This document shows, piece by piece, positions 17,065-31,329 of a DNA stretch of 33,748 bases. The first letter of the stretch is position 1. Each line of letters opens with the position of its first letter. The notes under the pieces are model-generated. The model saw only the letters and a program-made list of their open reading frames with translations. It was not told the origin of the DNA and searched no databases. The position numbers and the translations under genes are program-made. Source of the stretch: a virus. The DNA lies in the IMG/VR virus record IMGVR_UViG_3300027749_000313, positions 1 to 33,748 of that record. The stretch is one strand, 5' to 3'.

Positions 17065-18304
17065 AGGCTGCAACGCGGCAAGCCAGTTCAGGATACAAGG
17101 GCGCCCAACCATACAACACGTCAAGGCGCGTAGGGATTGAATCGTTGTTAATTGTATACTGGCGTACTACACGGATGGACAATCCTAGGTCTTTATCACT
17201 AGCACGTCCAGCAAAGTGAACCCCGTCAGGCAATTCCAAATCAGCGGTTGCCACGGTCGCAAAATTTTTGTGGAAAATTAAGTTCTGTGGGCTGACAACG
17301 CCGGTGTTGTTGAATGGTGTAACAACAGCGGTGGCGCTGGTGGAAGTCACAACAACGTTTTGGAATTGGCCACCGGTAATGACAGCGGGGCTGACAATCA
17401 CGGAAGTGGTTCCCGAAGTAGCAACAGTCACATCGGCAGTCACGACAAAATTACGCACTTTGCCGTAGTTTTGACGGTTTTGTGGGTTAACGCCATAAAT
17501 GCCAGCGATTTGAATCACATCGCCTTGTTTCAAACCAGCGGTTGCGGTCGTTGCAGTCAATGCAATGGTGGACGTTGAAGCCCAACCGGTTGACAAAAAG
17601 CCGGTTCCGGTGGTTGTCGCGCAAGCCAATGTAGCGGTTGCGTAAGAACCAAAAGTTTGGGACACAACGTTTTGATCCATGTACCAGTTTGCACCAGCGG
17701 AATCGCGGCCCATCATGCCTTTGGTGTATTGTTTGCCAACCACATCGGAAGGAACAAACAAACCTTTTAGGCTGTCAACAATGGTTGCGGAAGTGAACGG
17801 TTCGATCACGATAGAACGGCGACCGTCACGGGGCGCACCTTCGCTGTCCAGGTAAGCCTGGCCGGTCAGGTAAGTAATCAAGCCGGTGGGCGGTGTGCCA
17901 GCCGTGCCGACAATGTTGGCCACGTTGTTTTTGGCCATAGTCAAGCCGTCATAATCCATCTTATTCGCAATGGCCGCAATCGCGGGTTTGAGAATTCGAT
18001 CTGAAAATGCGTCCAGGCTCAAAGCCAAATCTTGGCTAGTAAATTGGGTGTCAACGTGAAATTGCGTGGACAAAGTAACAGGCACAGATGTTTCGTTGAA
18101 GTCTTCAACGTTCAGCGCGGGGCCAGTTGTACCGATGAAACGACCAGGACGACGAACGTTCAAAGTGTTACCGATTTTGGCGCCGGTGACAGCAAATTGA
18201 TCGTCGTATTCGCGGGTGACGTTGTTTGTGAACGTAAGTTCGTTTTCCAAGACCATCAACGCTTCGTTGGTGATCTTGCTGATGGTAAGCAAATTATTAG
18301 CCAT
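17063..18304 (-). CDS. Major capsid protein, P22 coat-type
   Basis: A 413-aa shell protein of the HK97-fold P22 coat family (P22's own is 430 aa). The N-terminus LLTISKITNEALMVLENELTF, then VTREYDDQF and RRPGRFIGT, are typical of this family's N-arm and E-loop region. Residues about 225-345 are Thr/Val-rich and probably form the telokin-like insertion domain. The end LDVLYGWAPLYPELACRV is also family-like. AGGA precedes the ATG. It follows scaffold, as in P22. The phage-encoded GroES at 24199-24462 may assist its folding, because P22-type coats are known GroEL/ES clients. Confidence 0.9.
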   Translation of the reverse strand: MANNLLTISKITNEALMVLENELTFTNNVTREYDDQFAVTGAKIGNTLNVRRPGRFIGTTGPALNVEDFNETSVPVTLSTQFHVDTQFTSQDLALSLDAFSDRILKPAIAAIANKMDYDGLTMAKNNVANIVGTAGTPPTGLITYLTGQAYLDSEGAPRDGRRSIVIEPFTSATIVDSLKGLFVPSDVVGKQYTKGMMGRDSAGANWYMDQNVVSQTFGSYATATLACATTTGTGFLSTGWASTSTIALTATTATAGLKQGDVIQIAGIYGVNPQNRQNYGKVRNFVVTADVTVATSGTTSVIVSPAVITGGQFQNVVVTSTSATAVVTPFNNTGVVSPQNLIFHKNFATVATADLELPDGVHFAGRASDKDLGLSIRVVRQYTINNDSIPTRLDVLYGWAPLYPELACRVAA

Positions 18305-28341: not shown

Positions 28342-29080
28342 CGGACACCTCCACGGTTTGCTCAGGTTTTGCCCAAAACGGGGCTGGTACTGGTTTTGGT
28401 GTTGCCAGGCCGCGGGTAAGGGCTGCCATTTGCGCCAAACGGGCCTCTGACGCTGTTTTCTTGGCTGCCTGTTGCCGACGTACCCAATTGCGCCAGGTGG
28501 CCGTCCAATCGGTTTTTACGCCCTTTTGGCCAGGCTGCGCGATCCAGTAGTCGCGGAACCCCTCAAACGTTTCCCGCGGATCAAGTTCAGGCCGGTGTTG
28601 GTGACAAAAAGAAACCCATTCATCCGACAGCGGAAAGTCAGGGGCCAGGCGCGTCCCGCGCTGGCTCTCTCTCTTTGGTTTTATGGTTAATGGTTTGTGG
28701 TTAGTGGTTAGTTGCACATCCGTTGAACACTCGTTCAACACCTGTTCAACACCTGTTGCGCTGTTGTGCTTCCGACGTTCAGCGGATGCCCGACCGGCGT
28801 TGGATTTTTTCTCCAGGAATGTTCGGTACTCTGCGATTTCCTGGTCGCATCGTGTGTGATGCCATCCGTTTTCAGCCAGCCAAAAAAACGATTCCAACAG
28901 CAATTCCGTTTCTTCAACGGTCGCGCCAATTTGGAAAGCCAGGATTTTGGTGTCAGGCTTCAGGGGTTTTTCGGTGTCGTAGTACATCCACAACAACCGC
29001 AAATAGGCCATTGCTTGGCCGTCGGTCAACCTGGCGGTGGCTTTTATAAAGTCACCAATGTGATGCTGGTAATAGTGCAT
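28316..29080 (-). CDS. DUF1376/YdaU-like replication initiation protein
   Basis: A 254-aa protein. The N-terminal 85 residues (MHYYQHHIGDFIKATARLTD, AYLRLLWMYYDTEKPL, FFWLAENGWHHTRCDQEI) form the DUF1376 winged-helix-like domain found in phage replication initiators. A basic/disordered linker (residues 90-155) follows, then FPLSDEWVSFCHQHRPEL and DYWIAQPG...DWTATWRNWVRRQ, the C-terminal domain common to these proteins. The ATG at 29080 (GAGGG upstream) is better than a GTG seven codons earlier. It probably opens the origin and loads the replisome. Confidence 0.82.
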   Translation of the reverse strand: MHYYQHHIGDFIKATARLTDGQAMAYLRLLWMYYDTEKPLKPDTKILAFQIGATVEETELLLESFFWLAENGWHHTRCDQEIAEYRTFLEKKSNAGRASAERRKHNSATGVEQVLNECSTDVQLTTNHKPLTIKPKRESQRGTRLAPDFPLSDEWVSFCHQHRPELDPRETFEGFRDYWIAQPGQKGVKTDWTATWRNWVRRQQAAKKTASEARLAQMAALTRGLATPKPVPAPFWAKPEQTVEVSDVERKRLL

Positions 29081-29182
29081 TTTTCCCTCACTCTGTCCCA
29101 CATAAAAAAGAAATCACGGCGGCGGGTGGGCTCGCTTTTCGGGTGGCTCATGACTTCCACCCTAGCCGGATTCCAACAAATT

Positions 29183-29341
29183 CTAGCCCTTAAACCATTT
29201 CGGACGCAACGCTTTCAACTGCCAAACCCGTGCCGACGGAACATCGCTTCCCCATTGGCTAACGGCCGCCCTGGTGATTCCCAACAGTTCGGCCAAAGCC
29301 TTGGCCGATCCAGCCAGTTTGATTGCTTTTTCTTTATCCAT
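29183..29341 (-). CDS. Cro-like helix-turn-helix repressor (52 aa)
   Basis: Too short for the usual cut-off. The product reads IKLAGSAKALAELLGITRAA then VSQWGSDVPSARVWQLKALR: helix, turn, helix with Q-W at the start of the recognition region, very like P22 Cro ('AVAKALGISDAAVSQWK'). It is transcribed leftward from a promoter whose predicted start coincides with its ATG. The adjacent TTAAG-N4-CTTAA sites are its likely operators. No CI-type partner was found. Confidence 0.85.
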   Translation of the reverse strand: MDKEKAIKLAGSAKALAELLGITRAAVSQWGSDVPSARVWQLKALRPKWFKG

Positions 29342-29347
29342 CTTTCC

Positions 29348-29376
29348 ATGTTAAGCGGCCTTGCAAATCTTGTCAA
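29348..29376 (-). promoter_or_regulatory. Leftward sigma70-like promoter for cro-like/replication operon
   Basis: Minus strand TTGACA, 17-bp spacer, TAACAT. The -10 ends seven bases before the first base of the Cro-like gene's ATG (29341), so the mRNA should start at or next to that ATG, giving a leaderless or nearly leaderless transcript. Operator A overlaps the -10 and spacer, which predicts autorepression. Confidence 0.78.
29351..29364. promoter_or_regulatory. Operator A, TTAAG-N4-CTTGC
   Basis: Copy of the inverted repeat TTAAG-N4-CTTAA with two mismatches in the right arm. It covers the -10/spacer of the leftward promoter and is ten bases from the Cro-like ATG. Confidence 0.6.
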
Positions 29377-29397
29377 GAGTGGCAATACCTGACAAAG

Positions 29398-29411
29398 TTA
29401 AGGGGGCTTTA
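29398..29411. promoter_or_regulatory. Operator B, TTAAG-N4-CTTTA
   Basis: Copy of the inverted repeat with one mismatch, midway between the two divergent promoters (47 bp from A, 36 bp from C, start to start). Confidence 0.62.
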
Positions 29412-29421
29412 CAAATAGTGT

Positions 29422-29450
29422 TTGACAATGTTGTTAAGCGGGCTTAATAT
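29422..29450 (+). promoter_or_regulatory. Rightward sigma70-like promoter 1
   Basis: TTGACA, exactly 17 bp, TAATAT: near-consensus. The predicted start is the A at 29457, first base of ATGCCCTAAC. It drives the LPD29 gene and the early-right operon. Operator C lies across the spacer and -10. Confidence 0.9.
29434..29447. promoter_or_regulatory. Operator C, TTAAG-N4-CTTAA (perfect)
   Basis: A perfect TTAAGC-GG-GCTTAA inverted repeat placed between -35 and -10 of rightward promoter 1. Binding here would directly block RNA polymerase. Confidence 0.72.
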
Positions 29451-29456
29451 TCACCT

Positions 29457-29502
29457 ATGCCCTAACAAATTGCACGGGGTCTTTTAAAAGGAAATCAAAA
29501 TG
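29457..29502 (+). repeat. Leader repeat copy 1 (ATGCCCTAAC ... GGGTCTTTTAAAAGG)
   Basis: The 5' leader of the LPD29 gene. It shares ATGCCCTAAC, GGGTCTTTTAAAA, GGAAAT and AAAATG with the leader at 30355-30391; copy 1 has an extra nine or so bases in the middle. It includes a TTTTAAAA palindrome next to the AAAGGA ribosome site. Confidence 0.82.
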
Positions 29503-30048
29503 TCAAATCGTAAATACCTCTCATGCGCCGAAACCGCAAAACTCATTCGCGCTGCTCTCAAAGAATCTTTTCCTGGCGTAAAGTTTGCCGTCCGTTCTAG
29601 CGTTTATTCCGGCGGCGCCAGCATCAATATTCGTTACGAAAACGGCCCAACTTACAACCAGGTCAAAGCGGTGGCCGGTATGTTTGAAGGTTCTTATTTC
29701 GACGGAATGACCGATTACAAAGGCAGCAATTACGGCGCCTTGGATGGCCAGGAAGTTCGGTTCGGTGCTGACTTTGTTTTTGTCAATCGCAAATTTACAA
29801 AAGCATTTTTGGAAGGCGCAGTCGAAGCGGCTTGCAAATACTACGGTTACGCAATGCCTGTCATTACCGACGGTTACGACAGCGCCTACATTGCCGACCG
29901 GTTGGATTACGAAGCAAATCGCTGCATCATGGCCAAGGTTGAGGAAATCAGCCTTTGCGATACAAAGGAAAGCGCCACCCTGGCCCGTGTCGGGTTCTTG
30001 GGTGACGACGGTTACGGTTGGAATGCTGTTGGCCGCAAGGCCGCATAA
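29500..30048 (+). CDS. Stand-alone LPD29-domain protein
   Basis: A 182-aa protein. AETAKLIRAALKESFPGVKF, then AVRSSVYSGGASINIRYENG, and FDGMTDYKG...GADFVFVNRKF match the LPD29 domain, originally noticed inside large polyvalent proteins carried by phages and conjugative elements; activity unknown, with host takeover or defence evasion suggested for the class. It is the first gene of the early-right operon, under a near-consensus promoter and operator C, so it is probably made at once after infection. AAAAGGA precedes the ATG. Confidence 0.83.
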   Translation: MSNRKYLSCAETAKLIRAALKESFPGVKFAVRSSVYSGGASINIRYENGPTYNQVKAVAGMFEGSYFDGMTDYKGSNYGALDGQEVRFGADFVFVNRKFTKAFLEGAVEAACKYYGYAMPVITDGYDSAYIADRLDYEANRCIMAKVEEISLCDTKESATLARVGFLGDDGYGWNAVGRKAA

Positions 30049-30058
30049 AGGGGACGCC

Positions 30059-30157
30059 ATGAACCGCGAACCAACCGATTGGGAAGTTTTGGGGATGGCG
30101 CTGGTGGCAGCACCGGCCATCTATGTTTTGATTTGGCTTGCAATGGCCATCTTTTAA
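30059..30157 (+). CDS. 32-aa single-pass membrane peptide
   Basis: A short gene with AAGGGGA just before the ATG. It encodes NREPTDWEVL followed by one hydrophobic helix (ALVAAPAIYVLIWLAMAIF) reaching the C-terminus, so it should be a tail-anchored inner-membrane peptide. It lies between two well-placed early genes. Function unknown; membrane or superinfection effects are possible. Confidence 0.62.
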   Translation: MNREPTDWEVLGMALVAAPAIYVLIWLAMAIF

Positions 30158-30167
30158 GGGGAACGAA

Positions 30168-30335
30168 ATGACAATCCGAATCACCAGGGTACATCGCGGG
30201 GGCCGCGTGTTCTACGCCGCCACCGTCAGCGGCGTTTACCTGGAACGCGCCAGCCTGGCCGAATTGCGTGAAGCAATTGCAGTTCGTGAAAGATTTGCAA
30301 AAATATTTGCTGATCCTATTGACACCGCAAGTTAA
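30168..30335 (+). CDS. 55-aa basic early protein
   Basis: A 55-aa protein, TIRITRVHRGGRVFYAATVS then a helix (ASLAELREAIAVRERFAKIF). A beta-beta-alpha layout of this size could bind nucleic acid, but I recognise no family. The ATG at 30168 has AAGGGGA upstream; the open frame extends ten codons further up without a ribosome site. Rightward promoter 2 begins inside its 3' end. Confidence 0.68.
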   Translation: MTIRITRVHRGGRVFYAATVSGVYLERASLAELREAIAVRERFAKIFADPIDTAS

Positions 30336-30348
30336 GTTGGCTTAAAAT
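30319..30348 (+). promoter_or_regulatory. Rightward sigma70-like promoter 2
   Basis: TTGACA, 18 bp, TAAAAT, overlapping the end of the 55-aa gene. The predicted start at 30355 is again the A of ATGCCCTAAC. Operator D sits in the spacer and -10, just as operator C does in promoter 1. Confidence 0.78.
30332..30345. promoter_or_regulatory. Operator D, TTAAG-N4-CTTAA (perfect arms)
   Basis: The same inverted repeat with both five-base arms intact, 0.9 kb from the other three, in the spacer/-10 of rightward promoter 2. Its matching position argues for a shared regulator. Confidence 0.7.
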
Positions 30349-30354
30349 CACATC

Positions 30355-30391
30355 ATGCCCTAACGGGTCTTTTAAAAAGGAAATTAAAATG
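30355..30391 (+). repeat. Leader repeat copy 2
   Basis: Shares ATGCCCTAAC, GGGTCTTTTAAAA, GGAAAT and AAAATG with copy 1 at 29457-29502. Together with promoter and operator, about 70-80 bp are duplicated as a cassette. Confidence 0.82.
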
Positions 30392-30679
30392 TTAAATGTA
30401 GGCAAATACAACATTCGCGTAGTTCAAACCGGCGAAAAATACGGCCGGAATGACTGCCTGACAAACGACCAAGCGCCAATGGTCGAATTCTACGATTCAC
30501 GCTACAACCAATCTGATTGGATGGGCCGTGGTCAATTTGTGTCTCGTTACTACGTTGACACCATTATGGATGGCACATATCCCAACGGCCTTTCGCTTGA
30601 TGGCGGCATTCCTGAATGGACAGTCAGCGCCGACGAAATGAATCAGGTTCAACAATTTTTGTCAGGGGTTGCAGCATGA
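30389..30679 (+). CDS. 96-aa early protein of unknown function
   Basis: A 96-aa protein: VGKYNIRVVQTGEKYGRNDC, PMVEFYDSRYNQSDWMGRGQ, YYVDTIMDG and SLDGGIPEWTVSADEM. Proteins beginning this way occur in environmental phages without known function. It looks globular and soluble, with no membrane segment. It has its own promoter (2), operator D and an AAAGGA ribosome site, so it is probably strongly and early expressed. Confidence 0.78.
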   Translation: MLNVGKYNIRVVQTGEKYGRNDCLTNDQAPMVEFYDSRYNQSDWMGRGQFVSRYYVDTIMDGTYPNGLSLDGGIPEWTVSADEMNQVQQFLSGVAA

Positions 30680-30885
30680 ACGCCGTCACCATCACCAACC
30701 CCAACCAAATCGCAACGTTTGTGAATGCGGAATATGGCATTGCTTCCCTGGTAACCCAGGTCAAAAAAGGTTATGCCGTCACGTTGTTGGACACCGATGC
30801 CGAAATGGTTGTGGCCACCCGCATTTATCCCGTGGCCATGTTTGCCCAGGCCATCAACTACGCCAAAGAAATTGCAAATGTCTAA
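30676..30885 (+). CDS. 69-aa early protein
   Basis: A 69-aa protein, NAVTITNPNQIATFVNAEYG then SLVTQVKKGYAVTLLDTDAE and MFAQAINYAKEIANV; mixed alpha/beta with no recognised family. The ATG at 30676 overlaps the preceding TGA (ATGA) and has AGGGG upstream; the open frame starting at 30616 is a shadow. Confidence 0.72.
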   Translation: MNAVTITNPNQIATFVNAEYGIASLVTQVKKGYAVTLLDTDAEMVVATRIYPVAMFAQAINYAKEIANV

Positions 30886-30988
30886 CTGGCCTTTCCCGCC
30901 GCCAGGGGGGCCAATCCCCTGGACGCGTAAGCAAGAACGCGATTACCAAAATCAAAAGCGGAATAACTTGCCGCCCGCACCATTCTGA
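30878..30988 (+). CDS. 36-aa Pro/Gln-rich small protein
   Basis: A 36-aa protein, SNWPFPPPGGPIPWTRKQER then DYQNQKRNNLPPAPF. Its ATG overlaps the stop of the preceding gene (an 8-base overlap). Very similar Pro/Trp-rich small proteins appear in other phages; function unknown. The ribosome site is weak, so translation is probably coupled. Confidence 0.58.
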   Translation: MSNWPFPPPGGPIPWTRKQERDYQNQKRNNLPPAPF

Positions 30989-30999
30989 AAGTAACTGCT

Positions 31000-31329
31000 A
31001 TGAAAAAACCTATTCGCATCGATGTTGATGGCCCTTATTACCCAAAACCAACGCGCTACCAACGCGCCTGGAATTGGTTGGTTTTGTTGGCCCTGGTGAT
31101 TGTTGTTGGCGCCTGGTTGACCGGTTGCGCCAATACATCGACCACCAGCGGAAAACAAGATTTGGTGTTGGATAAAGAAATCCAACCCATGTCGCGGAAC
31201 GAAGTCGTGTCGGCCATTGGCGATTGCCAGGCCAACAACCTTCGCGCCGTGTTGATGTACGGAAAACGCAAGGTCAGCGGATACACCGCCGACGTTGTGA
31301 TTGACGTTACTTGCGCCCCGAAATGGTAA
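31000..31329 (+). CDS. Putative phage lipoprotein/membrane protein
   Basis: A 109-aa protein. Residues 1-25 are basic and polar, residues 26-41 form a hydrophobic helix (WLVLLALVIVVGAWL), and LTGC at 40-43 reads as a lipobox with Cys43, giving a 67-residue periplasmic part with two further Cys (DCQ, VTCA). The n-region is long for a classical signal, so it could instead be an uncleaved anchor. Phage lipoproteins made early often block superinfection; that role is inference. It sits immediately before the recombination genes. Weak ribosome site. Confidence 0.7.
   Translation: MKKPIRIDVDGPYYPKPTRYQRAWNWLVLLALVIVVGAWLTGCANTSTTSGKQDLVLDKEIQPMSRNEVVSAIGDCQANNLRAVLMYGKRKVSGYTADVVIDVTCAPKW

Follow-up and report, generated by a model that had tools for sequence, protein, structure and literature searches.

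A short covarying hairpin at the predicted 5′ end of early phage transcripts, adjoining the ribosome-binding site

Combining motif scans, comparison of orthologous gene starts and tests of base pairing, we analysed a duplicated leader, carried by two neighbouring early genes, in the IMG/VR virus record IMGVR_UViG_3300027749_000313, whose whole stretch of 33,748 nucleotides (nt) is here called the window. The leader opens at the predicted transcription start with a triplet that is usually AUG, continues into a small stem with CC and GG arms, and ends in a U-rich tract and a Shine-Dalgarno (SD) site. As far as comparison of the sequences can tell, the conserved feature is base pairing rather than letters: because a third stem pair covaries while the exact string is mostly lost, we read the element as a very short RNA hairpin. 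It is probably a stabilising 5′ hairpin leader, comparable to those of T7 gene 10 and ompA, that would present an open ribosome-binding site.

In the window, the string ATGCCCTAAC occurs as two exact copies (29457-29466 and 30355-30364, + strand), with no third mismatch-free copy elsewhere in the record. Both lie 6 nt 3′ of a predicted −10 hexamer, counted to the A of ATG, and are followed by a shared GGGTCTTTTAAAA(A)GGAAAT block that leads to a start codon (at 29500 and 30389), which bears out the duplicated leader of a preliminary description of this DNA. The repeat exceeds the leader, the promoter spacer being duplicated as well (direct repeats D3 and D4). Pattern scans of IMG/VR, which fix parts of the motif in advance, found the string with the block in 29 contigs and the block with a start codon in 74, the copies preceding several different genes; 90 stretches (80 of them tabulated) have a looser form, ATGCC-gap-GGTCTTTTAA-gap-AGGAA. 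An element-blind test was provided by the starts of the gene that follows the first copy, which encodes an LPD29-domain protein, in relatives fetched by protein similarity (80 loci, 79 used; L084 was excluded since its contig begins inside the gene). A CC-loop-GG stem, a UCU-like tail, a ribosome-binding site and an AUG start are present in 76 of these 79 orthologous starts, the stem and tail keeping the form CC..GG[TA][CT]T that is found in copy 1, and AUG precedes CC in 64. Exact ATGCCCTAAC is found in only 12, which rules out the conserved string as the unit: the preliminary description had called for the leader in related phages, and it is the element that is conserved there, not the letters. 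The three orthologs that lack the leader (L117, L148 and L149) use different starts. The element is also coupled to the SD site, which lies 2-7 nt from the tail in nearly all cases. Of 263 pattern hits, counted with overlaps, 224 have an SD-like sequence 0-7 nt past UCUU; the other 39 are, by eye, mostly AGAAAG plus a start codon, the remainder looking like chance. Many of the leaders compared in this work are related, and the counts are not numbers of independent events.

The pairing itself was examined with only ATGCC and GGTCTTTTAA fixed, leaving free one base just 3′ of ATGCC and one just 5′ of GGTCTT. These two bases form pair 3 of the stem in 65 of 67 distinct leaders, as C-G (46), G-C (11), G-U (4), U-A (3) or A-U (1), and fail to pair in two (C/C and C/A). 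Similarly, 73 of 75 distinct promoter-registered cores pair, compared with a mean of 50.3 and a maximum of 61 over 5000 shuffles. In a structure-blind MAFFT alignment, pairing holds in 97.4% of cells (91.8% when shuffled, 21.9-73.4% when slid), 11 cells are changed on both sides, and the covariation score was reached by none of 500 shuffles. MAFFT misplaces the 5′ end of the tetraloop leaders, so that these appear as gaps and are absent from its pair counts; the anchored count of 75 cores includes them. Arms are exchanged among relatives from CCC/GGG to CCG/CGG, CCU/AGG and CCA/UGG, with double changes confined to pair 3, the CC/GG pairs being fixed by the search. Such covariation rules out a DNA operator within the transcribed part. 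The short loops include UNAC (UAAC, UGAC, UCAC, UUAC) and GNRA (GAAA, GCAA, GUAA) forms, and both GNRA loops and UMAC loops, which have a GNRA-like fold, are described as stable motifs in PMC12550061. The loops, of 3 to about 14 nt, do not share a fold, and because longer loops are equally common, the loop is not the signal.

The position of the hairpin relative to the promoter is equally regular. In a set of 185 distinct leaders from related uncultivated phages (6 further ones were dropped, and the CC arm was chosen with a preference for ATG and for −10 fit), 154 have a −10-like hexamer whose end lies 5-7 nt 5′ of the triplet preceding CC. The first base of that triplet is A in all 154 of these promoter-registered leaders, the triplet being AUG in 145, AAU in 4, ACG in 3, and AUU and AAG in 1 each. 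When a −10 match of at least 5/6 was demanded across 169 distinct upstream sequences, the gap was 6 nt in 90, 5 in 1 and 7 in 5; all gaps from 0 to 24 other than 6 together gave 16 matches, including 10 at gaps 18-22. The base 5′ of the A is C in 128 of 141 and T in the other 13. The preliminary description had placed the start on the A of ATG, and the fixed −10 spacing in relatives agrees with this placement, all starts being predicted ones. Covariation and the fixed gap together put a stem-loop no more than a few nt from the predicted mRNA 5′ end.

We propose that the RNA would begin at the A and, 2-3 nt on, fold into a hairpin of 3-6 base pairs (bp) whose letters would be free provided that they pair, the 3′ arm running directly into the U-rich tract (UCUUU) and the SD site, with the start codon about 20-25 nt past the stem. 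Such a hairpin would cap the 5′ end, leaving almost no single-stranded foothold for the pyrophosphohydrolase/RNase E route, while a ribosome on the adjoining site would shield the remaining leader. With the 5′ bases locked in a local hairpin, the ribosome-binding site would stay open, and UCUUU may be a site for ribosomal protein S1. Stability of the mRNA and ribosome capture are our best functional guesses; we infer the stabilisation, the role of S1 and the level of expression from the layout. Because each window copy accompanies an operator-bearing promoter, we further propose that the leader serves strong, stable and repressible early-gene expression.

Stem-loops of the ompA and papA type, which belong to host leaders with larger structures, hinder 5′-end-dependent decay, and the T7 gene 10 leader consists of a hairpin, an A/U-rich stretch and then an SD site. 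The likeness between the T7 gene 10 leader and the present one lies in this layout, with no sequence similarity claimed; the leader described here differs in its stem of 3-6 bp, which starts at nt 3-4, and in the fixed UCUU directly after it. The T7 hairpin is likewise near the 5′ end and is used to enhance expression, in a betaproteobacterium too: in Cupriavidus necator, its stem-loop is reported to raise the synthesis of a reporter 1.5- to 3-fold (PMC6146998). Similarly, 5′-terminal stem-loops, those of ompA and papA among them, appear as stabilising in the decay literature, going by reference titles in PMC3997798; they share with our leader the 5′-terminal pairing, which here too would act against decay.

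Several observations weigh against this interpretation. The window hairpins are weak (−4.8 and −4.9 kcal/mol) and fold no better than dinucleotide shuffles (z of +0.29 and −0.87); the case for structure rests on comparison. Folding together with 30 nt of coding sequence costs 17 of the 75 leaders, window copy 1 included, their preference for the hairpin. Pair 3 fails to form in a few leaders (L050 and L065), covariation at pairs 4-6 does not exceed that of shuffles, and among the 78 UCUU-SD sites that lack CC/GG arms, stems abutting UCUU show no enrichment, register 0 giving 14 and the other shifts 2-17. Some copies also lie off the predicted 5′ end, the AACGCCC copies being farther from the −10. 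In L033 and L056, a leader copy sits directly behind a GGGGG/CCCCC terminator-like hairpin and a T run, with no obvious promoter, and the gene it precedes may need read-through; a pure 5′-cap role explains neither these copies nor the AACGCCC ones. As for the folding of other leaders in isolation, stems such as CCUUC/GAAGG, CCAAC/GUUGG, CCUC/GAGG and CCGCAA/UUGCGG form standalone hairpins of −6.8 to −9.4 kcal/mol, and across 75 isolated leaders the C4-G pair has a median probability of 0.99, exceeding 0.5 in 68.

The main rival to a hairpin leader is antitermination, which we consider unlikely. Here the hairpin would be boxB-like and UCUUU a boxA-like NusB/S10 site, allowing polymerase to pass early-operon terminators, and the terminator-like hairpin before one copy in each of L033 and L056 would suit such a role, as would the UAAC loop of leader copy 2. 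UCUUU(U)AA resembles what we take to be the boxA core, GCUCUUUAA, from which GGUCUUUAA is one base off. Phage boxB RNAs are known to have UMAC loops, among them the CUAACC loop of the phage 21 boxB (PMC12550061), and the boxB-boxA order of rrn leaders, as given in PMC6614801, resembles the hairpin beside UCUUU. Like rrn and lambda-type nut sites, then, the element joins a hairpin, in some cases with a GNRA-like loop, to a UCUUU-like linear element. Unlike those sites, whose position is independent of translation starts, it is locked to an SD site (in the 224 of 263 hits given above) and to a start codon, a tie that antitermination does not need; its loops are of no uniform size or fold, and the would-be boxA has its GG paired in the stem. 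An N-like antiterminator gene went unrecognised among the ten early proteins scanned, such small proteins being easily missed.

Doubtful as well, and ranked after antitermination, is a role for the 5′-terminal AUG, which would bind 70S ribosomes as a leaderless start and pass them to the nearby SD site, a Met-Pro-stop frame ending the visit. The AUG is absent from 9 of the 154 promoter-registered leaders and stands at the predicted 5′ end upstream of an SD-led gene in the rest; AUG at +1 is far commoner than a hairpin alone would seem to require. Precedent exists in Escherichia coli, where 5′-terminal AUGs on leadered mRNAs (5′-uAUGs; Beck et al. 2016) are described as binding 70S, and the downstream gene requires some of them, as in ptrB with its 26-nt leader (PMC4965119). 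These share with our leader an AUG at the 5′ end upstream of an SD-led gene; the phage AUG differs in being followed by a covarying hairpin and often by a stop at codon 3. The divergent repressor gene of the window is itself predicted to be leaderless, again in favour of such a start. Against it stand the leaders with AAU, ACG, AUU or AAG, and the possibility that start-site choice together with a closing G-U pair accounts for A at +1 and G at +3. The AUG-CCC-UAA mini-frame of the preliminary description did not hold as a conserved unit either: of 68 distinct AUG cores, 41 have a stop as codon 3 and 27 a sense codon, and 26 of the 147 AUG frames reach the main start codon without meeting a stop. 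Start and stop are not both kept in relatives, which rules out a Met-Pro-stop mini-gene.

Improbable, in our judgement, is a translational operator, in which a phage RNA-binding protein would recognise the hairpin and UCUUU and control the genes that carry them; a small set of early genes does carry the element, at 1-4 places per record among 26 records picked as carriers, and yet the letters of stem and loop are freely exchanged, contrary to sequence-specific binding, and no candidate protein was identified. Least probable of all is a recently duplicated promoter-operator cassette, its transcribed part kept only through overlap with promoter and operator, which fits the operator-like palindromes common to the promoters and the inclusion of the promoter in the duplicated block and which covariation in the sequences already largely refutes, since compensatory changes, variable loop lengths and promoter-less copies are unexplained by DNA binding or recent copying.

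The features of the window around the two leaders are collected in Table 1. The palindrome TTAAG-N4-CTTAA is common to the spacers of both rightward promoters, and operator-like TTAAG/CTT sites lie at 29351, 29398 and 29434, between the divergent genes, and at 30332 in promoter 2. AAG-N4-CTT, the form of the P22 operator, is present in 111 of 154 rightward promoters of relatives, against about 1.3% of random 28-nt windows. With its P22_Cro family protein, divergent promoters and AAG-N4-CTT operators, the window holds an immunity-like region with repressible promoters that resembles the P22/lambda type, a likeness that concerns the promoters and not the leader; the leader would then belong to repressible early transcripts. 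In 85 of 85 distinct sequences upstream of the Cro-like gene (by eye, window included), the ATG follows the end of a −10-like hexamer by 5-7 nt, from which its message is predicted to be leaderless with ATG at +1; the lambda cI message is named as naturally leaderless in PMC4965119. We would give little weight to a start switch of two modes, in which the host's balance of free 70S and 30S ribosomes would bias expression between the leaderless repressor and the early genes, with the early 5′ AUG as a 70S landing site. The 96-residue product of the second leader-borne gene is without a Pfam or PHROG match. Separately, a UGGC/GCCA hairpin followed directly by UCUUUUAAGGGG (30134-30168, + strand) precedes the open reading frame (ORF) at 30168 and overlaps the end of the preceding small ORF; this arrangement recurs in about a dozen relatives, possibly owing to the coding sequence.

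Table 1. Predicted features of the region carrying the two leaders (window coordinates; aa, amino acids; HTH, helix-turn-helix)
Feature	Position	Strand	Remarks
P22_Cro-like HTH gene, 52 aa	29183-29341	−	PF14549, E 1.1e-12; predicted leaderless, ATG 6 nt past −10
Leftward promoter of Cro-like gene	29348-29376	−	TTGACA 29376-29371, TAACAT 29353-29348; operator-like TTAAGCGGCCTT at 29351
Promoter 1	29422-29450	+	TTGACA 29422-29427, 17-nt spacer, TAATAT 29445-29450; matching geometry in relatives
Operator-like palindrome TTAAG-CGGG-CTTAA	29434-29447		Spacer/−10 of promoter 1
Leader copy 1	29457-29480	+	Predicted +1 A, then hairpin G(CCC)U/G(GGG)U, 29459-29463 with 29476-29480, loop 12 nt
UCUUUUAAAAGGA	29480-29492	+	Copy 1 U-rich tail and SD site
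ORF, 182 aa, LPD29 domain	29500-30048	+	Pfam PF18847, E 4.1e-23; first leader-borne gene
Promoter 2	30319-30348	+	TTGACA 30319-30324, 18-nt spacer, TAAAAT 30343-30348
Operator-like palindrome TTAAG-TTGG-CTTAA	30332-30345		Promoter 2
Leader copy 2	30355-30368	+	AU-GCCC-UAAC-GGGU tetraloop hairpin, 30357-30360 with 30365-30368
UCUUUUAAAAAGGA	30368-30381	+	Copy 2 U-rich tail and SD site
ORF, 96 aa	30389-30679	+	Second leader-borne gene

Searches place the leader outside catalogued elements. In Rfam, no family matched the leaders in 29300-30500 at E up to 10 and none reached the gathering score (two chance-level matches fell outside them), which rules out a known Rfam RNA, and neither the combination nor the motif was found in the open-access literature by literal-string and keyword searches. 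One scan of genome contigs gave 3 matches that lack a paired CC arm or promoter, which we take as chance. The view that no element like it had been described stands, as far as these searches reach, for the combination and the motif and falls for the parts, 5′-terminal stem-loops and 5′-terminal AUGs each being known: the leader is of the known 5′ stem-loop kind in an unusual, minimal and covarying form. As for the phages that carry it, blastn of 29000-31000 against named phages gave no matches, tblastn with the LPD29 protein matched 2 distant phages, and for the terminase the best relatives belong to uncultured phages from spring water. A different arrangement is seen at 18116 and 18581 of L202 (MW202674), where structural-region genes follow GC-rich hairpins and then a UCUUUAAA-SD unit, which sits a few nt off the stem without contact.

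What emerges is a minimal covarying leader, roughly 35-45 nt long, which uncultivated phages place before different early genes. Should it stabilise the message and present the ribosome-binding site as proposed, it would rank with the smallest natural leaders that enhance expression and offer a ready part for use in bacteria related to the hosts. The fixed link between leader and +1 makes transcription starts predictable in the genomes of unculturable phages, and the opposition of such leaders to a repressor predicted to be leaderless would make control of a phage switch by ribosome state testable.
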